Below are positions 11,404 to 61,775 of a stretch of DNA of 64,000 nt, piece by piece. The notes under the pieces are model-generated. The model did no database searches and was not told the DNA's origin. It was given only the letters and a program-made list of their open reading frames with translations. Within the stretch, counting starts at the first letter, position 1, and each line of letters starts with the position of its first letter. The stretch is taken from positions 1 to 64,000 of the forward strand of contig CAMPDV010002074.1 of NCBI GenBank assembly GCA_946699065.1, given 5' to 3'. The position numbers and the translations under genes are program-made. This DNA is from Loxodes magnus (lineage: Eukaryota; Ciliophora; Karyorelictea; Loxodida; Loxodidae).

Positions 11404-11487
11404 GGCAGTTTGTCCGAGTCGGTTAAGGAGACAGACTTAAGATCTGTTGCACACTAGTGCGCGTGGGTTCGAATCCCACAGCTGCCA
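11404..11487 (+). tRNA. tRNA-Leu (TAA)
   Basis: An 84-nt class II tRNA with a long variable arm. The acceptor GGCAGTT pairs with AGCTGCC (one G-T), the anticodon loop is CTTAAGA (anticodon TAA, reading UUA), the T arm is GTGGG-TTCGAAT-CCCAC and the discriminator is A. A T run follows. A copy identical over all 84 nt lies in inverse orientation at 36,491-36,574. The long variable arm assigns it to Leu, so it is not a suppressor tRNA-Gln. Confidence 0.95.
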
Positions 11488-20470: not shown

Positions 20471-23400
20471 TCATATCAAGAGCGGACTGTCAATTTGAAA
20501 TTGTTGAGGTTTTGGAATTTTAATAGAGAATTAATGATTTTATATGTTTGAAACTTTAAATATTGCTTAAATTTTAAAAAATTATTAAGGTAGTATAAAG
20601 AGTAACTCTTAGTCATATACTATATCATTTTAATGATCTTCGCTCTCATATAGATCCTCAACTTGTTTTACCTTTTATACCTTCGAAAGTTTTATTCCTT
20701 TACTTGAGCCACTTTGTTGAATAATAATTTATGAAGATTAATTTTTATATGAAGATGTAGGAGTTGGATATGCTTTAGCTTCTTAGCTTTTTTAAAGTTA
20801 TTCTATTTTTTATTCCAGATTTTTATTTCTTTTTCTTTGTACATTTTTAAAATTTCCAGTTAGCTCTGAAGGACTGATGCTTTATTATTCTTAAAATAAG
20901 AACTAGTTCTATTCATTATTTATAACATTGTGATATAAATAAAGCTTAAGAGAAAAATTTTCTTACTCAAACAAAAAATTTTCATCATTTAGTATCTTAA
21001 AAGCTAAGAATTATCTGAAATTAAGGAAAATAGACTGATTCAGGATATATTTAGGTAGCAAATTTTAATCTCTCTTGCATTAAAAGGTTCATCTGAATAA
21101 ATAAGTTTCGTCTAACTCAAAGATAGTAATTAAGGTTTTTTATTTCAATTATAATCTAAATCCTATTAAAACTATTAAGCTACATCCTAGCCCATTCGCT
21201 AAAATGTAGAACTTTTTAACGATATTATAGGAAGAAAGTTCCATTCAAATTATTTATACTATTGAAAGCCAAAAGTTACAACCAAGAAAAATTAACATTC
21301 AGGAATTTAGTTTAGGGTAGCAGCAAGGCTATGTCTTGTAAATATAGAGGGAAAGAAAAGCTAATATAACTAAATAAAGTGCAGCATGGACTATTTTATT
21401 CTGCCTTTCTGCTAATAAATTCAAAGTAACTAGAATAAACTAGAACACTCTAAAGCTTATTAGTCATTGTTTTTTGTACTTTATCTTGTTTAAGTATCCA
21501 TATAGTTCTTATCACATTAGAAGGGTTTTAGTTCCTAAGATTGTATAGATAATGAAGGAAATAGAGCATACTATTACGAAAAAGAGGTGACTACCTTATC
21601 AACATTTTCAGTTACAATCTTTATAGTGAAATGACTCGGAAAATTCGAGAGATCCATTATGATTTTAGTCAAAGCCTTCAATGCAGATAAATAAATCCAT
21701 AAAGTTTCAGTTCAAAGGTAGGAAAAAGCTGTATGTTAGAAACGGGCCTAAATAATAAGAAATACTTCCAATTAAATAAAGAAATAATTTATTGGAAAAC
21801 TCTAACTTTCGCATAATACTCAAAAGGCTAATTAATCACAAAGAAGCTATGACACATGCAACTAACTGATTGGAGTATTGCTTGTTATGAGACTCTCCAA
21901 AAATATTTACGAAATCAAGTTTTGCACAGCTTACAATAAATTCTGCTAAATAACTATAATCAGAGAAGTCTGGACCAACTGAAGCGATTTGCAAAGTATA
22001 TAAAAGAATATGAAAAATGTAAATAAAATCCCAACTGGACATTACAAATACTCTCTTCAGTTTAACAAATTAATAGTCACTTCTTTTTCTTATCTCTCAA
22101 AAAGAAATTGAAATAACTAATATTAGCATGCTAAGTAAAATTACGTATTACACTATTTCGCCTTACGTAAATGTTTATCTTTCTCTTTCTTTAAAGGGAC
22201 ATTCTAAATTTCAATTATCTTCAAAACTTCCTGTACTTCCATCTCCTCACATAAAAGGCTTTTCGAAATTAAAAATGACATCACATGTTAAACAATAAAC
22301 TCCAATAGTTTAAATGCTTCAAATCCCTTTTTCATTTTTCCGATAGTTTTCTATGCTTCATGGCAGTGCAGATCTATCATTCGAAGTTGATTCGATACTT
22401 ACTTTCCCTGTTGCTCCTATGAATTTAGTATTTCTAACTGCCTCTATGATATTTTCCTATTTCTTGTAATTTTATCCTTTATTTATCAAACTTTGCAAAG
22501 CATGAACTCCCAAAAGAAGAGCATCGAATTCTGTGAAGGCATAATTAGTTAACTGCTCGGTGTTAAAATATTCCTAAATTTACTTTTTTATACTTTACCC
22601 AAAATCTCCCTATAAATAAGCAGGAGTAAATTATATTGCTCCTTTTACTACTGCTTGAATCTTACTTACTTCTTTATCTTGAGAAACAAAATTTTCGGTT
22701 AGTCAGGAAAAAGAAATGAATAAAAAGTCTCCTTCTCTCGCCCCCTATTCATAAAACTGCTTTATTATGATTTTGGCATCATCTTCATAAACAATAACCA
22801 AAACAACTCTAGTCTTCTAGTATATTTCCTTTACTATATCTTTTCATGATTCATTGCTAGTCTAGGACTTAATGTCACCTGCTACTCTATTTTTATTAGC
22901 TATGCTTATACTGAAGTGACTTGATTCTTTAACAAAGTAATCATATATTCCCTTTTATCATGCTGTATCCTAATAAATTACTCCTACTTTTGTTCATCCT
23001 TACATATAACATGTTCTTGCAACTAAAACTGCTGAATATGCATCTGAAGGAATTGATCGTACAAAATATGGATATTTTTATTTATTTGATAAATCAGGAG
23101 CTGCATTATCACCAGAGATACATGTTATAGTAAAGTTTTGCTATTCGAAAAAGTGATAAAGATCTATAGAATTAGAACTTGTTTCTGGTATGTAATGAAG
23201 TAGACCATATTCTTACTTCTTTTAGCTTTATTCTTTGTAGACATGGTTATAATCAAAATACTCAGCTCCTGTAAAAATATTGGTTGATTTTAAGCTATAA
23301 TAGGGCATTATGCTATTTACATTATTAACATAATAAACACCATATTCTCTACCTCAATAGTAATAAGTTACTCATGACACGTCAACTCCATCAGGATTTT

Positions 23401-24514
23401 TTTTGTCCGCTACCATGCTAATTGGAATTTCAATTAAACTATTGCCTGGTATGTTAGTAGTTCCATCAGGCCAAATTATTTATTCCTAATACACTATGGA
23501 AGTTAAATTAACGATTCCCACTACTTTAACTTTATTAAGTTGTACATTCAAAATTTAAAGCTAAATACTTTGACTAGAAAATAGCTTCTATGCCAAATCT
23601 TTCACTAATTCATTGTTGATATATTTCTACTCTTTTAATGCCTTTGCCATCTACTCTAAAAATAGGTCTATACAATGAAGTTAGTATTCATTCTCATTTC
23701 TAGTAATTTCCGTTCCAAAGCTAAAACCAACAAATCCATTTATAATCTAGATATCATGTAAATTCCATATTTACCAGGAGTTTTAAATATTCATTATAAA
23801 AGCTTTTATTTCATAGTTTTATTGCGAAATCAAATTTAAAAAGTATTCAAAGTTATAGCTGATAGTACTATAAAATTTCCTTATTCCTTTTATTTAAATA
23901 TCTTAAGAAATATCTCCTAAATTTATCTTTTCAATGCCAAAAGCAGGAATTATTCATTAATATTCTAAATTTCTTAGAGCTGATTAAATTATTGAAGGTT
24001 CACTTCCTGTAAATTAATCTGTAAAGTATCCCAAAGATTTTCATTTAAATTATTCTAAGAACTTTATTATTACTTTAGTAAGAGATTCAGTTGAAGGAAG
24101 GATAAAATGACTGAACTTACTATTTTAAATAATTTTGTTATTTTACTCCTTTGAAACTATGTGAATTATCTTATTTTAATGAGCTCAAATAGAAATTAAA
24201 TAGGTAAGTTAGTAGCTTTTTGTCATATCAATGATCATGTCTAGTTATAATTTCTCTCACTTTAATGTAAAATAGTTAAAGTTTTTAGTTATATTTCTAT
24301 TTATCTTTATTTACTCAAATTCTAGTTATATATCTTAAATTCTAAATCACTACTTATTTTAAAAGTGCTTATTTAAAGTTTCTTCCCATCCTTCTTTCGC
24401 AGCATTGACATCATAAGGTTGACTTATTCGATATTCATTTAGAAAAGCTATTTTTAAAGCATTTAACTTGACTATAGCTAAAATAATTAGCAAGATTGAT
24501 AATTTAGCTTGCAT
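20471..24514 (-). CDS. receptor B: PBP-like ectodomain, about nine TM
   Basis: A single frame of 1,348 codons from ATG 24,514 to TGA 20,471-20,473. Residues 1-20 form a signal sequence. The ectodomain (about 20-785) contains ANF-receptor-like motifs: ILPSTESLTKVIIKFLEQF near residue 150, CISGDNAAPDL and PYFVRSIPSDAYSAV near 480, and GWTKVGVIYQDTAWQKG near 518, possibly two tandem PBP lobes. In the last motif both Trp are TGA codons. About nine hydrophobic segments span roughly 790-1130, with a Ca-loop-like DQNHNGSLEF near 946 in one loop. The tail is polar, Gln- and Lys-rich. It resembles class-C-receptor-like ligand binding joined to a non-canonical membrane domain. Residues about 25-1236 are nearly identical to receptor C. 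Confidence 0.88.
20806..24440. repeat. near-identical tract shared with 49,255-52,889
   Basis: Base-by-base comparison at an offset of 28,449 shows only scattered differences (about 1%) over 3.6 kb. Both ends lie inside the receptor coding sequence. Outside the tract the two loci remain homologous but differ densely. The sharp change at both ends is the signature of recent gene conversion between paralogues, or, less likely, strong selection on the core only. Confidence 0.85.
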
Positions 24515-26374: not shown

Positions 26375-27297
26375 AATTGATATTCCAACTACAAAAAATG
26401 GAAGGCTTAAAGAAAGGTTTCTACACCACCTCCAAGAAATAGGAGAGGAAACCAGAAGCCACTCTTAATCAGTCGTCTTACACTTAACCCTAATCTTCTT
26501 CTTAATAAGACTAAACTCCGGTGAAGTAATATTAATTTTCCTTACCCAGGGAAGAATACCCAATTGCTAGGACAAGCCATGAACTCACTCCGTCAACGCA
26601 GGAAAAGCCAAGGAACCAGCCTAAGTCGGCTCTACATTAGGAGGTGTTGGAAGTCTATCCATCCGGGTAGTTGAGCATAGAACAATTAATTAAGGTAGTC
26701 ATAAACCTATAGGAAGAGGTTAAGAAGCTCAAGAAGGAAAATACGAAGCTAATGGATTTAATTGAGCAACAGGACTCAAGAGAGCTTCGAATGGCAAATT
26801 GGGAAAGGGAGCTTGACACTCTCTGGAAGTATCAGTAGGAAGAGTTGAAACAGATGAGTGCCTCAATAAAAACGATACAAGATTAGAATAAGGAAATAAT
26901 ATTAAGTTAGAGACAAGAAATTCCTAAGATCGACAAAATGGAAATAGAAGAAGAGCAGGTAATCAAGATGGAGCCGGCTAGAAAGTTAAAGAAGAAATGT
27001 TACTTTTGTAAAAGCCAGAATCATCTGTACAGAAGATGTAAGAAATTCTAGAAATTCAAGAAAGAATACTGAATTAAAGAAGAAAAGGAAAGGAAGAAAC
27101 TGTATTGCAATAAAGACGGACAAATATACAAGAAAAAATAAAAACAATCAGGAACTTCAAGAATAGAGAAGATGAGAATTGGGACAAGAGAGAATCAAGA
27201 AGAAAAACCACCAAGATTGAAAAACTTTTGTTTTATGCGGCAGCTTGAAGCTACTGCAGAACATTTAAATTGAATTGAATTAAATTGATATTCCAAC
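26375..27297 (+). mobile_element. ORF1-only retroelement with 15-bp target duplications
   Basis: An 893-bp insertion (26,390-27,282) is flanked by direct repeats AATTGATATTCCAAC at 26,375-26,389 and 27,283-27,297. The copy of the host locus at 54.7-55.6 kb has a single diverged site there, confirming insertion. The 3' end carries a short ATTGA-type tail. Variable-length target duplications of this size and a simple-repeat tail are typical of target-primed LINE-type insertion, not of LTR elements. Only one protein, of ORF1/gag type, is encoded and no reverse transcriptase is present, so it resembles the half-LINE (HAL1-like) arrangement and would need another element for mobility. GC content is clearly above the surroundings. 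Confidence 0.8.
26398..27273 (+). CDS. ORF1/gag-like protein with CCHC zinc knuckle
   Basis: ATG at 26,398 begins a 291-residue frame ending at TGA 27,271-27,273; one internal TGA reads as Trp. Residues 1-100 are Pro/Gln/Ser-rich. About 100-190 form a coiled coil (LQEEVKKLKKENTKLMDLIE). At about 200-213 lies CYFCKSQNHLYRRC, a perfect C-x2-C-x4-H-x4-C knuckle. A second, weaker knuckle-like segment (LYCNKDGQIYKKK) follows near 235, then a basic tail. This architecture is that of nucleic-acid-binding ORF1 or gag proteins. The frame looks whole, and the G/C-rich codon use differs from every neighbour. Confidence 0.8.
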
Positions 27298-28033
27298 ATC
27301 ATTAGAAAGTAAAAAAGATTTGCCAAGTCCGTTTTTGATGATCAGGTTTCTGAATTTTAAGACTGAATATAAAAATTTTTGAATAACAAAATTAAAAAAA
27401 TGAACTTAGGAGAATAGGCCAAGAGACTTAAGAAAGATAATAAGAAACTATTGGAAAGATAATAAGAGCGAAGAAATTATTTCAGATTCTCTTCACAAGA
27501 GTTATATCTAAATAATTCAAAGCTTGGCAAAAACTAAGATAGGTAATTTATTTTAGTATTTAGAGACAAAAAAGGGTGTAAAATTAGAATAAATAGTTCA
27601 GAAATATTAATAATTGTAAAATTATATCAGGTCTCCAAATTGAAGAAATGAAGGACAAAAATAGTGAAATAAATATTTAAAAAAGGTTGAAAAAGATGAA
27701 GAGCTATCACAAATCACAAGGCATCTATATATCAATATCAAATTTTTATTTTTTATAATAAATATTAAAAATATTAGTAAGACAAATAAAAATCTTTAAA
27801 ATATAGACATTGAAAGAATGTTAGGAAAATCAAGAGAAAATAAGTTTTAATAAATTGTCTAAGTCAATAAAAAAGACTTAAGAATTAAGAATAAAAAGAA
27901 AACAATTATTAAAAATTAAAAAAGCAATAAAAAATAAATAAATCTAAATTTTAAGAAATATCTGGATTAGTGGAAAAGAGGATTTAATGATTCTAAAGTG
28001 CTAAATTTTAATTTATCATTATTATAGCAACAG

Positions 28034-28620: not shown

Positions 28621-30290
28621 AAATAAAGCTAATACTTTATGAATTAAGTGTAATTGGTTTAAAGTTATAATAATTAATCTATTTTAAAATTGATAAACTA
28701 GCTAAATTAAAATTTATCTCATTCTTTCATAAATGTGAGTTAATAGTTAAAATTAATTATAAATAAAATTTTTGAGAAGTACTGTAATCATTAAAGTTAA
28801 TTAATAAAATAAATTATTTATTTAGAAAAGAATTCTTTAATAAAATTCTAATTTAACATTCTTTCTGTAGTAAGTAAAATTGAAAGAAACATTTTGCGAA
28901 GTAAAAGTAAGCTGTTTAGAATAAAATATATTATATAAATTAAGATATAAAAATGAAAAATCTTAGGAATATGATGAAAATGATAAAAGATATTAATTTT
29001 CTTAAGCCTGGAGATAATAAAATTAACATTCATTTAAAAGAAAAAAATTAATTGAATGAAGAAATGAAGAATATAGAAAGAGAACTATTTCTACTAAGTA
29101 AAAATAAAATAAATTAATAAATAATTGAATACTTAAAAATTTATAATATTAAGCATACCTGCTTAATAAATTATCTTTGTATTTTCGAGTGTATATTACT
29201 AAATAAACTAGCAAATAGTTGTATATAAATAGAAGAAGAAAAATAGTAAATTAAGATTAAATGGTAAGAGAAAGATAGAGAGTATAATATAGAAAAAATT
29301 AAGAAAATTAGCTTAAATAAAGCAATTAAAATAAATAGTTATTAAACAATAAAGATCTTAATATTTATCAACTTTATTTAAATTGCTTGGTAGAAGAAAC
29401 AAACTTCAGTTAAAGAAATTTTATGAATATATCGAAATATTAATATTTTAATATAGCAATTGAGAAGCTACGCAGCTAATTTGATAGATTTATTGCTTGG
29501 TATATTTAAAGATTTATACTTTGCTTGAAATAGAACTTTATCTACTTTATTACAAATTTATTTTCTTTACTTAAAATAATTCTTCCAAAAGCATTTTATA
29601 CTTTGCATCAGATGCTAACTAAAGAAATAAAAGATTTAGAAATAAATAAACTAAAGGATGATATAAATATAGAAATATTGTACTAAAAGAATAATATTAA
29701 AGTAAATAGAGTTAAATTAGAAATAATCATAGAATGCTTTTAATTATAATCATTAACAAATGTTTAAATTTTAATTTATTATCTCTATTATATCCCAAAT
29801 ACTTACTTAAATACAAATAATAAACATAATTTCTTATATTTTACCCATATTTTTATTCTTTACTAAATCAAAATTTTTTCGTCTTAATTTTTAATTTAAT
29901 CAGTTTATATAAAAATTAAAGCAGAATAATACATTTATTTAAATAAGCTTTAAATGAAAGATATTATTATAATATATCAGTATTATCTTTATAGACTTAT
30001 TAATGCTTCTTTTAATGCTTCTAGCTTATTGATTCTTTGTATTTTATTTATAAATTTTTCAAAATTCCTATCTTAACTTAATTTCAAGATAATTTTATTT
30101 CTTTTATGGATTTAACACTAGAGATAGACTTTTATTTGCTTAACCATAATTAGTGTTATATTTATGAAATTATTGAGATATCTAGTCAAGCATATTGCAT
30201 GATGATACATATTATGCATCAGATTAAATTTTTAACTAAGTTAAATATTTAAAAATTAGCAAAAACTTAATTGTATAGAATAGAGAAAAT
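28621..30290. other. decayed intergenic DNA
   Basis: Short blocks still match the tail of the 37-kb GTPase locus (for example 29,110-29,150 against 38,300-38,330), but no gene is supported. Lys/Glu-rich readings in this AT-rich DNA are expected by chance under this code. Confidence 0.4.
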
Positions 30291-31110
30291 ATGTAAATAC
30301 TATAGCTTAAAAGATATCAGGACTTTTTGCAGTTCTAAGAAAAAATTAGCCAACAAAATCCTAGAAAAACTAGGCTATTGAAAATAGTTCAAAAAATTAT
30401 CAACCAAATCGAAAATCCTGTCCCTAAAGAGAAGTTTAGGAAATAGGCTATAATATTATGCACCCATAAGACAAAAATTTCGCCATATAGCAGTAAATAA
30501 ATTATGATTAGCTGATAAAAGTGGAGTTGGATTTCCAAGAAGAGGTCAAAAAGTTGATGACAATAAGAAATTAATGTAAAAACTTAAAATTTCAAAGGAA
30601 ATAGAATCGAGTCTCATAACTATGAAAGAGACCGTAATGCCTTTGAAATATTTAAAAAGGCATGAAAAACCAATTATTTAACTAGCAATAGAAACGGGAA
30701 GAAAAAAGCAATTATAAAGGAAAAATAGAATAAACAGCAGAAAATGCAGAGTTAAATGGAACTAAGAGAATAGTGTAATGATCCAATGATAATCGAAAGA
30801 ATTAAAGCTCAAGATTCACACCTAAACAAAAATAAAAGTTATAATTACTGTAGCTCACATCTTCGAAAAAGTTGCTATAAATTTCACAACTTCAAATAAT
30901 AATAATAAAATTACTAGAAGGTATTGGAGAACAAAAAGAAGAGACTTCTCAAGATATAAATAAAAAGAGAAAGATTATATTGCAAAAAATCGAAAAAATA
31001 TACAAGAAAAAGAATAACAAGCATCATCTAGGCGAAAGAATACCTCAAGGACCATATGCATCGCAAAGAGAAGAATTTTAGAGACTTTCAAACTTTTATA
31101 TATTTAGCCT
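30290..31110 (+). mobile_element. decayed relative of the ORF1/gag-like element
   Basis: The plus strand contains short stretches alignable to the intact ORF1-like protein at 26.4 kb: a coiled-coil piece with FQEEVKKL near 30,530 and a Cys/His knuckle-like patch near 30,850. GC content is raised. The element is heavily broken and old; no target duplications were found. Family as for 26,375-27,297. Confidence 0.5.
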
Positions 31111-31129
31111 CTAAAGCAATTTAGGGGCT

Positions 31130-31930
31130 GATGGAAAAGAGATTGAATTATCTCCAAGAAAGTTAAACATTTAATTTATTATATGTATTATTTAAAAATA
31201 AAAAAATGGAAAGCTTATTGTAAAATGTCTCTCTAAACAGGATCCATCCCAATCAAATTATGATTAGCAAAATATACTTTAAGAACTCAAAATTGTGCAT
31301 AGAATAATCTTAAAATTTTAAGAAAAATATAAGAACTTGAAGGAAAAATAACATGCCGATGTCTAACTCATAAGAATAAAAAAATGATAATAAATACTCA
31401 GCAAAGATAAAAATTGAATAATTAGAAACTAAATTCAACCAATTCGCAGAGCTGACCGAAAACATATTCCTTTAAAATATATCGATGAATGATCCAAAGG
31501 ATGTAGAACCAAAAAAATCAAACAGAAAAAATTTCCTACTCAAGAGAAAAAATAATATTGATATTGCAGGAGATTTGAACATACGTTAAGATACTGCTGT
31601 AATTTCAAACGAAAGCATTAACAAGAAACTTTAAAATTATGATAATCGTTTAGTAATTATATTGCACCCCAGAAGGGTTATTAAATAGAAAAAAAATGTA
31701 CTTTTGGAGTGAAATCTTGATGAAAATTACTCTTGCTCAACAAAGAAGAAACTTAAATATGATTGGAATTGAACTCGACGGAAGGAAAACACCTTTAATA
31801 AAAAGGGTTAACACAGTAATGCTTGGCATGTATTAAAAGAAAATTATCCGGAATAAAACTGGAAATGGAATATTTAACAGAACTAATAAATTTTAAAGTA
31901 ATGAACCTGAATGAAAAGTGGAGTCACTAT
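31130..31930 (+). mobile_element. second decayed relative of the ORF1/gag-like element
   Basis: Another old, broken copy with a knuckle-like patch near 31,560 (CRRFEHTLRYC, keeping C-x4-H-x4-C spacing) and a coiled-coil-like part upstream. It follows the previous copy within about 30 bp, so the two may represent a tandem or nested pair. A Trp-rich reading near 31,730-31,900 has no recognised domain. Confidence 0.45.
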
Positions 31931-32070
31931 AATTTACTCATTTAATTCTAAAAATTAATTATCTTGTATATATCTAACTTTTAATATTTCAAATATACAA
32001 ATTAAAAAATTATTTTATAATATGAGTAAATAAAGAGTAAAAAAAAGTTTCTTAGTCACTTTCATAATTC

Positions 32071-35000
32071 TCATTTAGCAGCTGTTTTATAAAAATAATT
32101 ACCACCTTCATTTGGTTTGCATTACACTCTATTGTAGATAAATTAACTGCCTAATATTTAGTTAAGTGTATTTTACAACCTTAAAATTCTAATATCTTAC
32201 ATTCTGGCTTTTATATTATTACCCCCTAAAATAAAAAATAAGCATACAAACTATTTTTTGAATTATTTACTTTCTTATTTCATTTTAAATATTTACCATC
32301 TAAAATTTAATTTATTACATTCTCTGTTTAAAATTTACATTCTAATGTCATTAAATTATTTAACATTCTGAAACATAAATAACGCACTCCCTATAATTAT
32401 AGTAACTTACACTCTTATATAATATACCTACACTCTAGATTTTAGAGTCTTACAGTCTTTTCAATTACAGTCTTACATTCTTTTATTAAAATATTACTGA
32501 CTATAAAATAGATAACCTTACTTTCTATAAACATTAAAGATTTTACAATCTTTAAGTCTTTATAAATTACCTATTTAAATGTCTTAATTATTTTACTTTC
32601 TAAGCATATATTTTAATTTTTTTACGATCTTGAGTAATGTTTAAAACAACTTACTTTCTAGTTTTTTAAACTATTTTACATTCTTAATTTTTATTCAAAT
32701 CTCTTACATCCCACAGCTTCTGATTATTTTGATTAAAATATTTTACATTCTTAAGTTTTATTCAAATCTCTTACATCTCGCAGCTTCTAATTATTTTGAT
32801 TAAACTATTTTACATTCTTAAGTACTATTAAAATCTCTTACATCCAAAAATATCTATTTATTTTGACTAAACTATTTTACTTTCTTAAGTTTTATTCAAA
32901 TCTCTTACATCCCAAAACTTCTAATTATTTTGATTAAACTATTTTACATTCTTAAGTGCTATTCGAAATAACTTACAAGCCACTTAGATTTTCAAATATT
33001 TACTTTCTTTTGAGTAAGAATATTACGATCTGATATAATAAATATTTCTTACTTTCTAAGTAAATCTAAATATTATTAAAAGTTACTTAAGTTAATAAAA
33101 AATTCATACGTTGGGCTTTTTAAATTTAAAGTTTACATCCTAGTGTTGAAATATATTACCACCTAAAATAGATTGTTAATATTACAAGCTTGTTATAAAT
33201 AAGAATTTACAGCCTAGATGTTAATTTATTAATTGATACATTCTATATTTAACTTAATTATTTACAATCTGCATTACATTTAAGTGGATTACAGACTTAT
33301 AATTTATTAAAGCCCTCTTACTTTCTGAATATAACTTTAAAATTTTTACAGTCTATATTTTATTTTAGTTATCTTACTCCCTATATATAAACTAAAAATT
33401 ACTTTTATCTTGTTATATTCAAAATTACGCCTCTATTTTTCTCAAACATTTACAAGCTTATATAACTATCTTACCACCTATTTTTAAGACATTACATTCT
33501 TTATTATATCAAGGAACTTACTTGCTAATGTTTATTTATATATATTACTACCTTGTTATAATTTAACTTTCTTACAAGCTTGATGAGCATTAAAAGCATT
33601 TACAATCTTTGTATAATTACTTTATACATTCTTTCATATTTTTAATGCTTTACATCCAACTTAATAATTTAAAGTTCTCACTATCTGTTTTATCTCTTAA
33701 TAAGTCTTACTCCGTTATTATCCTTAATATAATCCACCAACTTGATGCTTTATATAACTTACTTTCTTATTATATGTTAAAGGCTTTACGTTCTGAAAGT
33801 ATAGTAATAGACTTACATTCTTATTATATGTTAAAGGCTTTACGTTCTGAAAGTATAGTAATAGACTTACATTCTTATTATATGTTAAAGGCTTTACGTT
33901 CTGAAAATATAGTAAGAATCATACGTTCTTTGCATTAGATATTTACAATCTGAAATATTTAACATTTTACATGCTAAAAGTACATGAAATTGATTACTGT
34001 CTTTTAACTTTATTATAGTTACGATCTATTTTACTTATTACTTCCTATAATTTTAAAATTTACTACCTATATTAATTTAACTTAATACTTCCTGATTTTA
34101 ATAAGAAAATAAACATTCTTACCACCTATATTTTTAGCAACTTACCACCTTTTAGATTATTTTATTTTTACAAACTATAATAATTATTTTCTTACCTCCT
34201 AATTTGTTAGTTAAATTACCACCTTGAAATAATTTATTTTACAAGGTGCTTTCCTTTAATATCTTACTACCTTTATAATTTGTAAATATATTACACTCTG
34301 GACTTAAATATTACTGTCTGTATTTAAAATTTAGCATTCTTAAATTATAATAGTACTTACTTTCTAATGCATTTAGTTAATTACATGCTATTTAGCTTTT
34401 ATTTATTTACTGCCTTTAGTGATTTTTTATAGCTTACATGCTAATTTTAATTTTATACCTCCTTTTTATTTATAACTATTTACCACCTTTTAGATTTAGT
34501 ATTTCTTACATACTTATTTAATTTTTTACTTACTATATATTAAAAAATCTTACTCTTAAACTCCAGACTGATAAGATTCTTCTCATCTACTTCAAGTCAT
34601 TCTAAAGTCTACTAATTTTATTATTCTCTTTCGTTATGATTCAACTTTTAAAATTCTTGGCTTATTGCATATTATCCTTCTATCTTTTACTTAACTTGCT
34701 CTATTGTATTATTTCATTCAATTTAGACATTAATCAATTTGCCATTTTATGTCTTAATAGCTAGCTATTTCGTTTCTTTTATTTATATCTTATAATTCAT
34801 AAAGTTTAATATTTCTTATTTGATTCCTTCAGCTTAACTCTTATAGCATAGTACTGAATAAAGTTTCTTTATTTACTTGTTTTTTTAAAACAGATTAGAA
34901 GCATTTTTTATAAAGTCAATTAACTCTCTTATACTTTGTAAATTTACTTGATTAAGCTAATTTAGCTGGCTCTTTAGTAATTCTAAGTTTTTTCTTTCTT

Positions 35001-35595
35001 AGTCAAACTTCTAATGGATGGCTTATTCATCCTTTTCTATTTATTTTATTCTTTTTTGCTAAATCTACTATATTGAGTTTATTAAAGCCTAGGAACTTTC
35101 ATTTACTTCACTTTTGTATTTCTGAATTCAAAGCTAAGCTTTCTAATATTCTTCTTCAAGATTATTTTGGCTTTCAGATAGAGATTTGTCTAGTTAATCT
35201 TTCTGCTATTAGGCTTTTTTCAACTCGTTCTATTTTATCTATTCTATTACTTCTTCTGCTATTACTATTTCATGCTCTTTATGCTATTATGAAAAAGCAC
35301 ATAAATGACATATTAGCTAAAACTCACTTCTACACAATAAACTCTTTGGCTAATTATGCATCTAGCAAATATCGATTTAATTTGGTACTTTCCCAGGAGT
35401 AAAAGCTATTTCTAGATCATAAGGATCTTATGCCGTGATTTGCTAGCAGGAAGGACAAACTATCTAACTATTCTACTAATGGAGTTTTAGAGTGCATTCA
35501 AAGCATAAGACATGATTACAACTAAGCATCTTTGGCTAGTTTCTTCCTTTATTGAACTCTTTGCTACAGTTAAGGCAAGAATTCGTTTGCTGCAT
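32071..35595 (-). CDS. TRIM-like RING/B-box/coiled-coil/UBL protein with microexon tail
   Basis: ATG 35,595. Exon 1 (35,595-34,554, 1,042 nt = 347 codons + 1 nt) encodes a C3HC4 RING (C7, C10, C26, H28, C31, C34, C47, C50), a B-box (C77, H80, C88, E91, C96, C99, H105, H108), a long coiled coil (about 115-260) and a ubiquitin-like fold at about 275-347 (IKTQNGKLINVQIEW, TIEQVKQKIE, LISLEF). Family knowledge points to an E3 ubiquitin ligase. The remainder is split into about 93 microexons (see the next entry), adding about 113 residues with CxxC pairs (CGAC, CTPCGVC, CTKC, CCKC) and Gln-rich repeats, and ends at TGA 32,071-32,073, followed by two more in-frame TGAs. Total is about 464 residues. 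Domain assignment of exon 1 is firm; the splicing of the tail is inferred. Confidence 0.85.
32704..32971 (-). repeat. 67-bp tandem repeat of exon-intron units, four copies
   Basis: Motifs recur at exactly 67-bp steps (32,704, 32,771, 32,838, 32,905 and 32,743, 32,810, 32,877, 32,944). Each unit is a 12-nt exon, a 25-nt intron, a 3-nt exon and a 27-nt intron. In the phase set by exon 1 the units give pentapeptides QQVLG, QNIFG, QQAAR and QQAVG. Introns within the units are nearly identical, unlike introns elsewhere in the array, showing duplication of whole exon-intron modules. Confidence 0.85.
33786..33912 (-). repeat. 54-bp tandem repeat with two microexons per unit
   Basis: Motifs are spaced exactly 27 bp from 33,786 to 33,894, alternating TTACGTTCT and TTACATTCT; the 54-bp unit repeats nearly perfectly about 2.3 times. 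Each unit adds two codons, which become a Gln run (CAA/TAA) in the phase set by exon 1. Confidence 0.85.
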
Positions 35596-36490: not shown

Positions 36491-36574
36491 TGGCAGCTGT
36501 GGGATTCGAACCCACGCGCACTAGTGTGCAACAGATCTTAAGTCTGTCTCCTTAACCGACTCGGACAAACTGCC
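36491..36574 (-). tRNA. tRNA-Leu (TAA), second copy
   Basis: Reverse complement is identical over 84 nt to the gene at 11,404-11,487: class II variable arm, anticodon TAA, discriminator A. The flanks differ, so the identity reflects selection or conversion of the gene itself. Confidence 0.95.
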
Positions 36575-49072: not shown

Positions 49073-52000
49073 TCATTGATCTTCGCTCTCATTTAGATCC
49101 TCGATCTATTTTACCTTTTGTATCTTTAAAAGTTGAAGCTCTTTACTTTAGTTATTGTATTAATCATCAACTTACTAAGATTCGTTTTTTAATGAAGATG
49201 AAAGCTCAGGAGATGGATACATTTTAGAATCTAAGTTTTTTCGAAGTTATTCTCTTTTTTATTCCAGATTTTTATTTCTTTTTCTTTGTACATTTTTAAA
49301 ATTTCCAGTTAGCTCTGAAGGACTGATGCTTTATTATTCTTAAAATAAGAACTAGTTCTATTCATTATTTATAACATTGTGATATAAATAAAGCTTAAGA
49401 GAAAAATTTTCTTACTCAAACAAAAAATTTTCATCATTTAGTATCTTAAAAGCTAAGAATTATCTGAAATTAAGGAAAATGGACTGATTCAGGATATATT
49501 TAGGTAGCAAATTTTAATCTCTCTTGCATTAAAAGGTTCATCTGAATAAATAAGTTTCGTCTAACTCAAAGATAGTAATTAAGGTTTTTTATTTCAATTA
49601 TAATCTAAATCCTATTAAAACTATTAAGCTACATCCTAGCCCATTCGCTAAAATGTAGAACTTTTTAACGATATTATAGGAAGAAAGTTCCATTCTAATT
49701 ATTTATACTATTGAAAGCCAAAAGTTACAACCAAGAAAAATTAGCATTCAAGAATTTAGTTTAGGGTAGCAGCAAGGCTATATCTTGTAAATATAGAGGA
49801 AAAGAAAAGCTAATATAATTAAATAAAGCACAGCATGGACTATTTTGTTCTACCTTTCTACTAGTAAATTCAAAGTAACTAGAATAAACTAGAACACTCT
49901 AAAGCTTATTAGTCATTGTTTTTTGTACTTTATCTTGTTTAAGTATCCATATAGTTCTTATCACATTAGAAGGGTTTTAGTTCCTAAGATTGTATAGATA
50001 ATGAAGGAAATAGAGCATACTATTACGAAAAAGAGGTGACTACCTTATCAACATTTTCAGTTACAATCTTTATAGTGAAATGACTCGGAAAATTCGAGAG
50101 ATCCATTATGATTTTAGTCAAAGCCTTCAATGCAGATAAATAAATCCATAAAGTTTCAGTTCAAAGGTAGGAAAAAGCTGTATGTTAGAAACGGGCCTAA
50201 ATAATAAGAAATAATTCCAATTAAATAAAGAAATAATTTATTGGAAAACTCTAACTTTCGCATAATACTCAAAAGGCTAATTAATCACAAAGAAGCTATG
50301 ACACATGCAACTAACTGATTGGAGTATTGCTTGTTATGAGACTCTCCAAAAATATTTACGAAATCAAGTTTTGCACAGCTTACAATAAATTCTGCTAAAT
50401 AACTATAATCAGAGAAGTTTGGACCAACTGAAGCGATTTGCAAAGTATATAAAAGAATATGAAAAATGTAAATAAAATCCCAACTGGACATTACAAATAC
50501 TCTCTTCAGTTTAACAAATTAATAGTCACTTCTTTTTCTTATCTCTCAAAAAGAAATTGAAATAACTAATATTAGCATGCTAAGTGAAGCTACGTATTAA
50601 ATTATTTCACCTTACGTAAATGTTTGTCTTTCTCTTTCTTTAAAGGGACATTCTAAATTTCAACTATCTTCAAGACTTCCTGTACTTCCATCTCCTCACA
50701 TAAAAGGCTTTTCGAAATTAAAAATTACATCACATGTTAAACAATAAACTCCAATAGTTTAAATGCTTCAAATCCCTTTTTCATTTTTCCGATAGTTTTC
50801 TATGCTTCATGGCAGTGCAGATCTATCATTCGAAGTTGATTCGATACTTACTTTCCCTGTTGCTCCTATGAATTTAGTATTTCTAACTGCTTCTATGATA
50901 TTTTTCTATTTCTTGTAATTTTATCCTTTATTTATCAAACTTTGCAAAGCATGAACTCCCAAAAGAAGAGCATCGAATTCTGTGAAGGCATAATTAGTTA
51001 ACTGCTCGGTGTTAAAATATTCCTAAATTTACTTTTTTATACTTTACCCAAAATCTCCCTATAAGTAAGCAGGAGTAAATTATATTGCTCCTTTTACTAC
51101 TGCTTGAATCTTGATTATTTCCTTATCTTGAGAAACAAAATTTTCGGTTAGTCAAGAAAAAGAAATGAATAAGAAATCTCCTTCTCTCGCCCCCTATTCA
51201 TAAAACTGCTTTATTATGATTTTGGCATCATCTTCATAAACAATAACCAAAACAACTCTAGTCTTCTAGTATATTTCCTTTACTATATTTTTTCATGATT
51301 CATTGCTAGTCTAGGATTTAATGTCACCTACTACTCTATTTTAATTAGCTATGCTTATACTGAAGTGACTTGATTCTTTAACAAAGTAATCATATATTCC
51401 CTTTTATCATGCTGTATCCTAATAAATTACTCCTACTTTTGTTCATCCTTACATATAACATGTTCTTGCAACTAAAACTGCTGAATATGCATCTGAAGGA
51501 ATTGATCGTACAAAATATGGATATTTTTATTTATTTGATAAATCAGGAGCTGCATTATCACCAGAGATACATGTTATAGTAAAGTTTTGCTATTCGAAAA
51601 AGTGATAAAGATCTATAGAATTAGAACTTGTTTCTGGCATGTAATGAAGCAGGCCATATTCTTACTTTTTTTAGCTTCATTCTTTGTAGACATGGTCATA
51701 ATCAAAGTATTCAGCTCCTGTAAAAATATTGGTTGATTTTAAGTGATAATAGGGCATTATGCTATTTACATTATTAACATAATAAACACCATATTCTCTA
51801 CCTCAATAGTAATAAGTTACTCATGACACGTCAACTCCATCAGGATTTTTTCTGTCCGCTACCATGCTAATTGGAATTTCAATTAAACTATTGCCTGGTA
51901 TGTTAGTAGTTCCATCAGGCCAAATTATTTATTCCTAATACACTATGGAAGTTAAATTAACGATTCCCACTACTTTAACTTTATTAAGTTGTACATTCAA

Positions 52001-52963
52001 AATTTAAAGCTAAATACTTTGACTAGAAAATAGCTTCTATGCCAAATCTTTCACTAATTCATTGTTGATATATTTCTACTCTTTTAATGTCTTTGCCATC
52101 TACTCTAAAAATAGGTCTATACAATGAAGTTAGTATTCTATCTCATTCCTAGTAATTTCCGTTCCAAAGCTAAAACCAACAAATCCATTTATAATCTAGA
52201 TATCATGTAAATTCCATATTTACCAGGAGTTTTAAATATTCATTATAAAAGCTTTTATTTCATAGTTTTATTGCGAAATCAAATTTAAAAAGGATTCAAA
52301 GTTATAGCTGATAGTACTATAAAATTTCCTTATTCCTTTTATTTAAATATCTTAAGAAATATCTTCTAAATTTATCTTTTCAATGCCAAAAGCAGGAATT
52401 ATTCATTAATATTCTAAATTTCTTAGAGCTGATTAAATTATTGAAGGTTCACTTCCTGTAAATTAATCTGTAAAGTATCCCAAGGATTTTCATTTAAATT
52501 ATTCTAAGAACTTTATTATTACTTTAGTAAGAGATTCAGTTGAAGGAAGGATAAAATGACTGAACTTACTATTTTAAATCATTTTGCTATTTTACTCCTT
52601 TGAAACTATGTGAATTATCTTATTTTAATGAGCTCAAATAGAAATTAAACAGGTAAGTTGGTAGCTTTTTGACATATCAATGATCATGTCTAATTTTAAT
52701 TTCTCTCACTTTAATGTAAAATAGTTAAAGTTTTTAGTTATATTTCTATTTACCTTAATTTACTCAAATTCTAGTTATATATCTTAAATTCTAAATCACT
52801 ACTTATTTTAAAAGTGCTTATTTAAAGTTTCTTCCCATCCTTCTTTCGCAGCATTGACATCATAAGGTTGACTTATTCGATATTCATTAAGAAAAGCAAT
52901 TTTTAAAGCGTTTAGCTTTACTATAATTAGGATAATTAACAGGATTGGTAATTTACTTTCCAT
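49073..52963 (-). CDS. receptor C: PBP-like ectodomain, about nine TM
   Basis: A single frame of 1,297 codons from ATG 52,963 (MESKLPILLIILIIVKLNAL, signal sequence) to TGA 49,073-49,075. The centre is nearly identical to receptor B (same PBP motifs, membrane segments and DQNHNGSLEF loop). The first 25 residues and the last roughly 60 differ strongly. The stop lies where receptor B reads on (EDQ-TGA against EDHQNDIV), so the tail is about 30 residues shorter; if this TGA were Trp the protein would continue. Gene B and C promoters and tails are therefore distinct although the receptor bodies are the same. Confidence 0.88.
49255..52889. repeat. near-identical tract shared with 20,806-24,440
   Basis: Partner of the conversion-like tract in receptor B, at constant offset 28,449 with only scattered base differences. 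Confidence 0.85.
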
Positions 52964-58093: not shown

Positions 58094-61000
58094 TCATTCA
58101 TATGAAAATACAATCTTAGGTGGTTTTCTTTTCTTTATTCTCTTCTATTTACCTTTGCTGATTTATCATTTTTAACCAATATTTAAACTTAAAGGCTCAA
58201 CATTTTCAGCTTTGATTTCATCTTTTGTGGTTTCTAATTATATTCTACCAACTCTTTTATTTTCATTGGTTGCTATTTAATAACTACTTTAGTTTTAACT
58301 TTGAGATATATTTACTAAAGAAGATCTGCTTTTATTATCTTACTCTGGAAGCACTTTTCTGGTTTTTGTTTTATTAAGTCTACAAATTTTCCAAAACTTA
58401 TAAAAATCTACCAGCATTAGAATAAAAGAAATGATTATTGTAATTAAGGAATAGCAGCAGCAAAAAGCTACTATAAACTCTCCTAAGTTATAAGCTTATT
58501 CCCTTTACTTCTCTGTCATTTCTTTTTTTTCTAGATCTAAATAGTAAAAATTGAAGAAGTAGATAAAAAGAAGTAAAAACTCACCAAAAATTTCTGAATA
58601 AAATAATAGAGAACTTGCAAAAGGCTTATAAATTACTATGTAGAAAAACCAAACCAGACAGTGAATTGTATACATTATTATTTAAACTACTTGGTATTCT
58701 ACTAGCACTATTGCAATAAGACCTACAAAAAATCTTCTTAGCAAGAAGAAAGTTTGAAACAAAGTTTAAGGTAAATTATTTTGTACCTTTTGCTCGAAAT
58801 AAAAGGTATATTTTGCTTTTATCTGATCTATTTACTTCTTGAGTGCTTCTTCCTTGCTTACCTCAAATTTCTACTGCAAATTGAAAAATTTTTTGAGAAT
58901 CATAAAGCTTTATAAAATGGTAATTAGTTGAATAATCTAAATAAAGAGCTTACCAAAACTATAATTGAGAGAAAGGAGTTAAAAGCGGTATAAGAATCAG
59001 TGATATCAAAATGGGTTAGTTGCATCATAACAGCTATGTTAATCTAAAGAGTTTTTAGATTATACTTTATTGAAATATAATTTCTATTAGTAAACTTATT
59101 TCTTACCTTCTCTATTTTTTATTTCCAACCAATATATCCAATACACTTCAGTAATAAATCTATAAAGAGTAATATAAATATAATGAATAAAGGGCTCATT
59201 AAGTTTGCTATTAAGGTAAAACTTTCGTAATTTAGAAGTGAGTAAATTGATTTATCAATTGGTAGATTTTAGAATCTAAGTCAAATTATAAGAAGTCATT
59301 GTTATTTATTCCACCTACAGGCTGACTGTTATTGAAGTTCATGAAGTAATATGCGTTTATATTTTCCGTTCTCTTAACATCTATGTAAGCACTAACCAAG
59401 ATTAACTAAGTGATCAATAGAGCTTATAAAAGAAAATATTACCCTAAAAATCTTTAAGTTAAGGTAAATAATGAGAGTATTAGCAAACTTACTGTTCCAA
59501 CGAAGACTACTTATGTTAAGGAAGAATTTAAATAAAAACTTGATTTTATAAGTTCTTTCTCTTAAGTTGTAACGTCGAAATCATCTACTGATTCTGATAT
59601 TTCTTCTTTATTCTAATCTTAGTTAATTTCTTATTCTTCTTAAGTCTAATTTTATTCGCAAATTTTAAAATAGTTAGTAAAATTTTTGTTGCATTGAACA
59701 CAGTCTTATAACTAAGTTAAGCTAGTTTGATTATTTAAGCATTTCTAGCAGTCTAAAATTAAATCGCATTCTTCGCAAGCTCCATCTATCTTTACTTGAC
59801 TTTATGAACAAAATTCTTAACTAACACAAATAATTTTATTGTCTATTTCTTGAAATATGTAATTTTCTTAGCACTTAACACAATTTTTTCCGTCGTCGCT
59901 ACATAAATCGCAATTTGCAATTTTTTGACCGCATTTTAGACACTGAAAGTTCTAGGTCTAAAAAGTATTATTAGGGCATTTTTCAATGCAAATATCATTA
60001 TAGATATTGAAATTTTCAAAGCATTCTATGCAAATATTTCCTTGTAAGTTACATCTTTTACAGTTACTTATTTGATTACTGCAAAGTGAACATTATTATT
60101 CATTTTATGAAAAGTAATATTCATCTGAAATACACTCTGCACATGCTTTTTAATCTTGCTTAAATTTAAAGCATTAAGGAATTTTTTATATGCATGGTTA
60201 GCAAACTCCATCTTAATCGTAATCTTGTTCTTAATCTGGACATTAATCCTGACATTAATTATGTGTTAGTTTCAGGGAATAGCTTTAATTACACTATAAG
60301 CATTAATTTCCATCTTAAGAGCAATAAGAGCAATTTTCTATTAATTCTGAGCAAGCTGCACATTTTTAATCTGCAAGATAATAGCCTGATTAGCACTCTA
60401 AGCACTACGAATCATTACATCTTTAGCAAAAGCCTCATTCTAAATTGCAAGGTAAATAAACTCCGTTTTAGTTTATGTCTTGTTCATTATCCTTACAATC
60501 TGCTAAGCAGACACCGCTTGTTAATTTTAGTAAAGAATTTTGATCACATTCTAAGCATTAACTTCCATCTTGCGAGCATTAAGAACAATCTTGAATTAAT
60601 TCTGAGCAGGAATAGCAAACTTTATTCTTTAATATGTAGTTTGGTTGACATACTAAACACTGTTAATTGTCACATTAAGAGCACAAATTTCATTTTTAGC
60701 TACAGGATTAGCAGTCTCCATTCTAGTAATACTATCCTACTAGACATTAATCTTGGCATACATTATTTATAAACTCTTTGCCGTCCCAACATTAGAGGCA
60801 CGTAAAAGCATCACAACTTATACAAAATTCATCGTAAGTCTAACAGGAAATACATTCTCCTTGAACTAAAGAGGAATTATTCATGCACTTCGAGCATGTT
60901 ACTCCTTATTAATCGCACTCTTCACAGAAAGGTAAAGTATCATTACATAATCCACATTTATTATCATTGTTAGCATCTTGCTGATTGTCTGGACAGGCTT

Positions 61001-61775
61001 AAGAACATTGGTTTTAAAGCGATAATTTTTATGTACAAATGCACTATCCATTTTAAAGTGATCAAGAATTATCAAAGCACTGTAAACAATTTTATGCTGA
61101 TGAATCAAAGCATTTAGAGCATGAAATATCACATGATAACTGACTTGGTAGTGATGTGAATCCTTAATAAGGTTAGTTGTATATTAAATAAAAGTCACTT
61201 TAATTGAAATAAGTATTTTTCCAGTATCTTAGGGCATAAACTGATCCTTTGAAATTAAAAGTTGAAGCAAAAGTTCCTTAATAAATGTTGTCACTATTAA
61301 TAAAACTTACAAAAGGATTAAGTTTCTATAATTTATTTTAAAGTTGATTTTACAATTAGGAATGAGTAAGGAAAAGTTAATTCCAACCACTATTATTTCA
61401 GGAAAAGGCAATAAAAACTCAAATATCACTTACAAGCGAAATGCTTAACGTAAAATTTTAGTAAGCACTACTCACTCTTTAGTGAACTTAAAAAGTAGTT
61501 TATTATGTTATCTAACTTTAATTTACTCCAAGTTCTATGTAATTATTAGAGTTTCTTTATATATTTATATAGTAGCCAAAATCCCTTTCATTTAATTTTT
61601 GCTAACCAAATTTCAATCAAGCTGTTATAGAATATCTTTATTGGTTCAAAGGATCATAATTATAATAAGAAAAATTATGAAAACTTGAATTGATTGAAGG
61701 AGAAAAGTTCTAGGGTGTGTTAGGAGTTTAAATGTCGAAGAAATCTAATTAAAGCTGAAGAGAAAGAAATACCAT
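58094..61775 (-). CDS. gene D: LamG-like, furin-like Cys-rich, multi-TM surface protein
   Basis: ATG 61,775 (MVFLSLQLQLDFF). Residues about 10-200 resemble a LamG/concanavalin-type sandwich (RYSITAWLKFG, WVFIAFSW, GSVYALRYWKNTYFN). About 208-700 are furin-like CxxC repeats (CSELIENCSYCSQDGNQCLQC and many more). About 735-1150 hold membrane segments (VVFVGTVSLLILSLFTL, LFIIFILLFIDLLLKC, VGLIAIVLVEYQVVQIIMYT, LITIIISFILMLVDFY) and a polar tail follows, with TGA at 58,166-58,168 or 58,094-58,096. One 17-nt intron is needed, plus one missing base near 59,273; with both, the length is a whole number of codons. It is a typical ciliate cysteine-rich membrane protein; function unknown. Confidence 0.8.
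58963..58979 (-). other. 17-nt spliceosomal intron in gene D (approximate position)
   Basis: GTAAGCTCTTTATTTAG joins AFNSFLSIIVL to IIQLITILQSFMILKKFF in the same frame. Longer alternatives break the frame. It supports mini-introns as normal in this genome. Confidence 0.6.

Follow-up and report, generated by a model that had tools for sequence, protein, structure and literature searches.

In what appears to be a Loxodes-like, karyorelict-type ciliate, some 93 tiny spliceosomal introns probably divide the tail of a TRIM-like gene on the minus strand of the 64-kb window (the whole stretch of DNA that was analysed, 64,000 nt) into about 92 microexons, mostly of 3 nt, which would code for a Cys- and Gln-rich protein tail. 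The array itself is real: the motif array, the exon-length rule, the intron signals, the tandem units, the phase set by exon 1 and the effect of exon order on Cys codons and CxxC pairs are observed directly in the DNA, and we infer splicing and translation. In the proposed mechanism the introns would split a codon after its first base, and each 3-nt exon would complete that codon with its first two bases and open the following codon with its third. Intron definition would guide the splicing, through a GTAA donor, a YTAA 8-12 nt inside the intron and, about 22 nt beyond the donor, an NAG acceptor. Once joined, the exons would encode a RING-like, B-box and ubiquitin-like protein extended by a tail rich in Cys and Gln, of 133-142 residues according to the parse, and the array would have grown by tandem duplication of intron-plus-exon units. 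Every unit would lengthen the mRNA by a number of bases divisible by three, regardless of its genomic length, so that growth would be free of frame cost. The fuller picture, in which about 80 one-codon exons share one fixed phase, recognition is purely by intron definition, duplication is frame-neutral and exon bases outpace intron bases in recent copies, is put forward with less assurance, as somewhat better than evenly probable.

Exon 1 and the phase of the array

Exon 1 (34554-35595, minus strand; Pfam and splice parse) begins with an ATG at 35595 and carries a RING-like finger, a B-box, a coiled-coil-like stretch and a ubiquitin-like domain. It contains three in-frame TGA codons, read as Trp. 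With TGA translated in this way over 34560-35595, Pfam recognised the ubiquitin domain (29.8 bits, cut-off 25.4) and, after the RING, zf-B_box (26.6 bits, cut-off 24.1), and zf-RING_5 scored 24.0 bits, under its cut-off of 27.9. The coiled coil after the B-box was assigned by eye. The predicted product of exon 1 can be described as TRIM-like. A search for relatives of this protein in viral and prokaryote contig collections gave 4 and 30 pattern matches, respectively, none of which was confirmed by tblastn, as is expected for a ciliate gene.

The length of exon 1, 1042 nt, corresponds to 347 codons and one base, which agrees with the single extra base that the initial annotation had placed at its end. 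Because of this length the array starts one base into a codon, and the phase is unchanged along it as long as every microexon length is divisible by three. The phase was fixed by exon 1 and hence not picked to suit the tail. The first intron (34533-34553, minus strand; splice parse) has 21 nt, reads GTAAG...TAG and splits a codon after base 1.

Motif counts and predicted microexons

On the minus strand, AG-NNN-GTAA is repeated over 2.47 kb, mostly at distances of 19-29 bases, from the end of the ubiquitin-like domain (34554) to a TGA at 32073-32071. Within 32060-34545 the exact motif occurs 70 times on this strand and not once on the opposite strand, and each of the other gaps between AG and GTAA from 0 to 20 was found 0-9 times on the minus strand. 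The relaxed form AG-N3-GT was counted 90 times in the same interval, including some overlapping and unlikely sites. Over the entire window and both strands there are 112 copies of AG-N3-GTAA, compared with 39.6 +/- 6.0 in 100 shuffles. Runs of three linked motifs number 31 in the window against an expectation of 0.02, and every one lies inside the array. The initial annotation had described about 93 such motifs separated by unrelated AT-rich sequence. The array on the minus strand is confirmed, and the count is too high for the strict motif; the spacers are mostly unrelated, except in two sets of tandem copies with periods of 54 and 67 nt.

A donor/acceptor splice model was fitted without any frame assumption. 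It placed 71 three-nt exons in the array, compared with a mean of 2.3 and a maximum of 6 in 60 dinucleotide shuffles, and window tiles clear of the array contained no more than 4. In these tiles no second array of 3-nt exons was found in the rest of the 64-kb window. The number of introns returned by the model carries no information, as shuffles yield about 53; the count of 3-nt exons is what informs. When exon lengths were learned, the frame-blind model gave 93 internal exons, among which 76 had 3 nt and 88 were multiples of three, and the share of multiples of three in 25 shuffled arrays was 33%. A cruder first version of the frame-blind model had given 75/93 and 85/93, respectively. The five exons outside the rule have 10, 10, 14, 4 and 5 nt, and the one of 14 nt most likely represents the last bases of exon 1, set apart by a false intron.

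Forcing every exon length to be divisible by three cost 10.5 score units in the array; in shuffles the mean cost was 99.8 and the lowest 70.3. The forced parse, obtained after one false intron inside exon 1 was dropped, places the array at 32082-34553 (minus strand) and divides it into 92 microexons and 93 introns; the microexons have 3 nt (80), 12 nt (5), 6 nt (4), 30 nt (2) or 33 nt (1) and total 417 nt. The unbiased exon-length figures are those of the frame-blind parses. The predicted introns (n = 93, forced parse) have 14-31 nt with a mean of 22.1, and 81 of them are no longer than 25 nt.

One stretch (33403-33453, minus strand) is irregular and has no clean multiple-of-three parse with introns of 16-27 nt. 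The frame-blind parses place a 4-nt exon, AGGC, in it, which may break the frame; the alternatives are a 30-nt exon with one TGA, as in the forced parse, or a 13-nt intron and a 12-nt exon, as taken for the exon-order and local shuffles described below that used a hand-curated exon list. At 32550-32596, a zero-length exon in which AG abuts GTAA is an alternative to a 14-nt intron and a 12-nt exon, and would look like a recursive splice site.

Signals within the predicted introns

We aligned 75 non-redundant introns of 16-27 nt on the donor. Position 10 is T in 68% and position 13 is A in 69% of them. In 36 of the 75 the motif [CT]TAA starts within positions 8-12, whereas 500 shuffled versions of the interiors gave a mean of 15.0 and a maximum of 25. 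Counted without regard to position it occurs in 39, which is within the shuffles (maximum 42), so the excess is an effect of place. Six branch-site patterns were tried. Both [CT]TAA and TTAA at positions 8-12 beat all shuffles, and YTNAY, TAAY and YTAAY showed no enrichment over shuffles of the same 75 introns. The YTAA at 8-12 nt from the donor is named here as a branch-site candidate. The 3-nt exons are richer in G+C than the intron interiors (26.3% vs 13.7%, p = 4e-6). One 18-nt intron in the splice parse (34335-34318, minus strand) is likely of the GC-AG type. The initial annotation had interpreted the array as spliced, and that interpretation is supported by the exon-length rule, the positioned YTAA, the G+C of the exons and the 67-nt unit.

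Coding capacity of the joined tail

If the tail is spliced as proposed, the triplets might still not be selected as protein, and the array would then be a neutral or regulatory run of introns with 3-nt spacers, the peptide being tolerated because the code has few stops. We consider this unlikely. Neutral spacers need not be multiples of three unless the frame matters to the end, and the G+C excess of the 3-nt exons over the introns also argues against it, as does the order of the exons. In an exon-order shuffle the letters of the exons are kept and the codons across junctions are altered. With tandem copies removed, phase 1 has 12 junction Cys codons against 6.0 in order shuffles (p = 0.0003), in a hand-curated exon list that favours multiples of three at alternative sites and that was also used for the local shuffles and the codon-likelihood tests. 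The other split phase has 1 against 2.3, likewise with tandem copies removed. The excess persists if shuffling is limited to nearby exons (p = 0.0003-0.0005); reversed exon adjacency gives 6 junction Cys codons. In the forced parse there are 12 against 6.85 (p = 0.0035). The same parse has 5 CxxC pairs against 0.375, a number that 0 of 2000 order shuffles reached, and this statistic is not blind, having been raised beforehand by the initial annotation. A first cluster of Cys residues in the tail, which reads IICGACTQKYKCTPCGVCGG in phase 1, is predicted at 34089-34532 (minus strand; splice parse), with exons nearly all of one codon. The CxxC pairs would probably bind zinc.

Codon usage, in contrast, singles out no phase, and the joined tail is no more coding-like than the window average, as would be found if the triplets were not selected. 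When exon 1 and the ANF-receptor gene described below served as the training set for a codon likelihood, phase 1 was not favoured over order shuffles (p = 0.26-0.27). The per-codon score of the joined tail is -3.84 in phase 1, -3.82 in phase 0 and -3.92 in phase 2, all under the window average of -3.75. A favourable codon-likelihood result (p = 0.005) was dropped as evidence because its training had included a Cys-rich gene. The first base of the triplets is a purine in 84%, and their G+C by position is 36/20/23%, compared with 34/21/29% at the codon positions of exon 1. This positional composition is nearest to exon 1 in phase 0. Splice context, in which AG is followed by a purine and GT is preceded by T, could lie behind that fit, and composition by position may thus reflect splicing and not coding. 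TGA is absent from phase-1 junctions (0 vs 2.4, p = 0.036; local shuffles p = 0.06-0.10), but it is likewise scarce at phase-2 junctions (1 vs 4.0, p = 0.03), and TGA avoidance was therefore dropped as evidence of phase. Correlation between neighbouring exons is also present in phase 2 as well as in phase 1. All phases are nearly open, with 0 or 1 TGA per phase of the joined tail, and the caution in the initial annotation that other phases stay open was justified. The tail is without a protein family match: Pfam gave zero matches at E <= 5 for a 131-residue version without AGGC. The best PDB match of the tail, a flavocytochrome with E 0.12, was taken as chance, and the idea of assigning the tail to a named zinc-finger family was given up.

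The exon-order shuffles give moderate support to coding in phase 1. The predicted spliced product has 347 + 142 residues in the forced parse, where the AGGC exon contributes a TGA read as Trp, and 347 + 133 residues with the hand-curated list. The peptides quoted in the initial annotation, among them QYSCTKCAQ and WECCKCAAK followed by TGA, were reproduced in phase 1, given that the AGGC stretch is a multiple of three, and the predicted tail ends with the latter.

Tandem copies and proposed growth of the array

A repeat search found two tandem repeats in the array. The 54-nt repeat (33757-33930, minus strand) consists of two intron-plus-codon units in about 3 copies. Its exons alternate between AAC and AAT, which gives Gln (CAA/TAA) in phase 1 and Asn in phase 0. 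The 67-nt repeat (32666-32977, minus strand; repeat search and splice parse) has 4.6 copies, each with exons of 12 and 3 nt and introns of 25 and 27 nt. Its length is not a multiple of three; its spliced content of 15 nt is. Insertion of 67 nt would break an unspliced frame and the spliced 15 nt keeps the frame, so the unit is frame-neutral only if spliced. Across the array the mean similarity of introns two units apart is 0.537, compared with 0.471 for distant pairs, and ten pairs reach at least 0.8. The higher similarity at a distance of two units results from the tandem copies.

In the 67-nt copies at 32666-32977 the exons are more variable than the introns, which is the opposite of the usual pattern. 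Among four copies, with one intron of unequal length left out, 8/15 exon sites vary compared with 8/52 intron sites (p = 0.005), in a small, after-the-fact comparison. Faster change of exons in recent copies is what diversifying selection on the encoded residues would give.

The array might instead be unspliced, that is, a degenerate satellite, an array of binding sites or part of a long reading frame that mimics splice sites. This is very improbable. Tandem copies exist, as it would predict, and the unspliced frame is open over long stretches, but the 67-nt copies would shift any unspliced frame. The motifs occupy all three unspliced DNA frames (29, 23 and 18), so an unspliced protein repeat fails as an explanation. 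The GTAA...AG polarity is confined to one strand, the internal signal is positioned, the spacer lengths match known karyorelict introns and the array begins at the end of a domain, all of which argue for splicing. Chains of AG-N3-GTR do occur elsewhere without splicing. A pattern scan of viral contigs comprised at least 120 stretches, and the longest chains among the matches listed have 13 links at two loci (L119 and L078) and at most 6 elsewhere, compared with 15 in the window. Six viral loci were inspected (these two and L009, L079, L075 and L090), and all are short, mostly near-exact repeats, including both 13-link chains, whereas the spacers here are mostly unrelated (similarity of far pairs 0.47). 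Chain length alone is thus not special, and the unrelated spacers are. DNA elimination was also considered; internal eliminated sequences (IES) were set aside because the motif lacks TA boundaries and canonical IESs are reported to be absent from L. magnus.

That the tail is non-functional debris behind an intact exon 1, from a decaying gene or an assembly error, is scarcely credible: the irregular AGGC exon and the odd 14- and 31-nt introns would suit it, but splice signals and exon lengths are preserved over about 92 units, which decay would erase, and with the host code the frame of exon 1 stays open.

Comparison with known microexon genes

The predicted exon pattern appears more extreme than any found described, at the far end of known microexon genes. 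No array of one-codon exons was found in open-licence PMC papers on ciliate microexons, 3-nt exons and microexon arrays. As predicted from the DNA, the internal exons of the array are mostly tiny, multiples of three and of one phase, as in micro-exon genes of the schistosome and aphid bicycle type. In schistosomes, micro-exon genes have runs of symmetric microexons that are multiples of three; their exons are of 6-36 nt and far fewer, their introns are long and they code for secreted proteins. These schistosome genes are a published class (PMC4671649). The array shares with the bicycle and megacycle genes of aphids a large number of tiny internal exons, almost all in the same phase (PMC9168663). 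The megacycle gene of M. sacchari has 118 exons, 2092 residues and internal repeat units over about 100 kb (PMC9168663). Megacycle exons, as described there, have many codons and are separated by long introns, whereas the exons of the array are mostly of one codon, with introns of about 22 nt and a total of 2.5 kb.

Very small exons are known to be spliced singly. A microexon of exactly 3 bp is reported in Drosophila homothorax (PMC7392893); it is described as isolated and alternatively spliced, in contrast to the consecutive 3-nt exons predicted here. In plants, 1-nt exons are recognised by the spliceosome (PMC8831610; PMC4674806), and the tiny exons described in PMC8831610 are isolated cases, with no more than two side by side (of 5 and 12 nt, in a single transcript from rice). 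Tiny introns of the length class of the array are reported from L. magnus (mode 17 nt; PMC11441545) and from Stentor, in which introns are of 15-16 nt and the branch-site A is at position 10 of the 15-nt introns (PMC9505925). This fixed branch A of Stentor is comparable to the positioned YTAA of the array. In its main text the L. magnus paper does not contain the word 'microexon' and arrays of 3-nt exons are unmentioned (PMC11441545), and the read mapping of that study would presumably hardly place 3-nt exons.

If spliced, the array would be a limit case for the spliceosome, with about 93 consecutive introns and mostly 3 nt between them. Exon definition and exon-bound factors could not act on it, and adjacent spliceosomes would hardly be able to assemble together. 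Intron definition and the order in which adjacent introns are removed would become testable within a single gene. A gene of this kind could lengthen by duplication of an intron and a codon without frame cost, and could escape standard RNA-seq mapping.

Host and neighbouring genes

The genetic code was assessed on an ANF_receptor domain encoded at 22157-23800, in a gene with a copy 28.4 kb off. With TAA and TAG (TAR) read as Gln the domain scored 116.1 bits, compared with 111.6 for Glu, 104.7 for X and 102.1 for Tyr. With TGA read as Trp it scored 116.1 bits, compared with 101.5-108.5 for Cys, Leu, Ser, X, Arg and Gly. These scores indicate that TAA and TAG encode Gln and TGA encodes Trp, as in the karyorelict code. 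The code of Condylostoma shares both assignments. The karyorelict code is listed as table 27 (PMC11441545).

The last coding exon of the forced parse (32071-32081, minus strand) ends with the TGA at 32073-32071, which is taken by inference as the stop. In L. magnus, coding TGA, and also TAA, is reported to be depleted ahead of true stops (PMC11441545). Near the end of the tail, Trp is encoded twice by TGG (codons 473 and 480 in a total of 489), whereas TGA and TGG are used 17:4 in the ANF stretch (TGA in 17/21), which agrees with that depletion of coding TGA. Two TAA codons also lie near the tail end, in a hand count from the exon list, though TAA too is reported to be depleted.

Introns of L. 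magnus are reported to have a mean of 19.3 nt and a mode of 17 nt, with 93% no longer than 25 nt, and heterotrich introns to have 15-16 nt (PMC11441545). The lengths of the predicted introns favour a karyorelict over a heterotrich host, and the code combined with such short introns fits L. magnus. Genome-wide, L. magnus introns are reported to be depleted of 3n lengths (PMC11441545); in contrast, 36/93 introns of this array, which is one gene, are of 3n length, without depletion.

A codon scan found 10 coding-like segments in the 64 kb and missed at least the second ANF copy. The paucity of such segments, together with a gag-like zinc knuckle, fits a repeat-rich Loxodes genome. Two coding-like stretches lie at 26551-27468 and 30254-31285 (both plus strand), and the former has a CCHC-type zinc knuckle, CYFCKSQNHLYRRC. 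By eye they are perhaps remnants of retrotransposon gag; a Pfam search of the gag-like zinc-knuckle segment gave zero matches.

The long ANF-receptor gene is present in two copies, at 20759-23983 and 49208-52432, 28.4 kb apart and with apparent membrane helices. The copies have 44 differences in 2401 bases compared without gaps. Both the ANF gene and exon 1 have long open runs without need of introns in the frames viewed. A gene for a Cys-rich repeat protein (59553-61154, minus strand) has three in-frame TGA codons and one TGG. Upstream in this gene is a candidate ordinary intron of 22 nt with TTAA inside (61585-61606, minus strand), found by eye; it connects two reading frames, and the spliced frame runs on across it. 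At gathering cut-offs, Rfam found three tRNAs and nothing else in the entire window. Two genes for tRNA-Leu(TAA), each of 84 nt (11404-11487, plus strand, and 36491-36574, minus strand), lie in inverted copies of 117 nt that are 90% alike.
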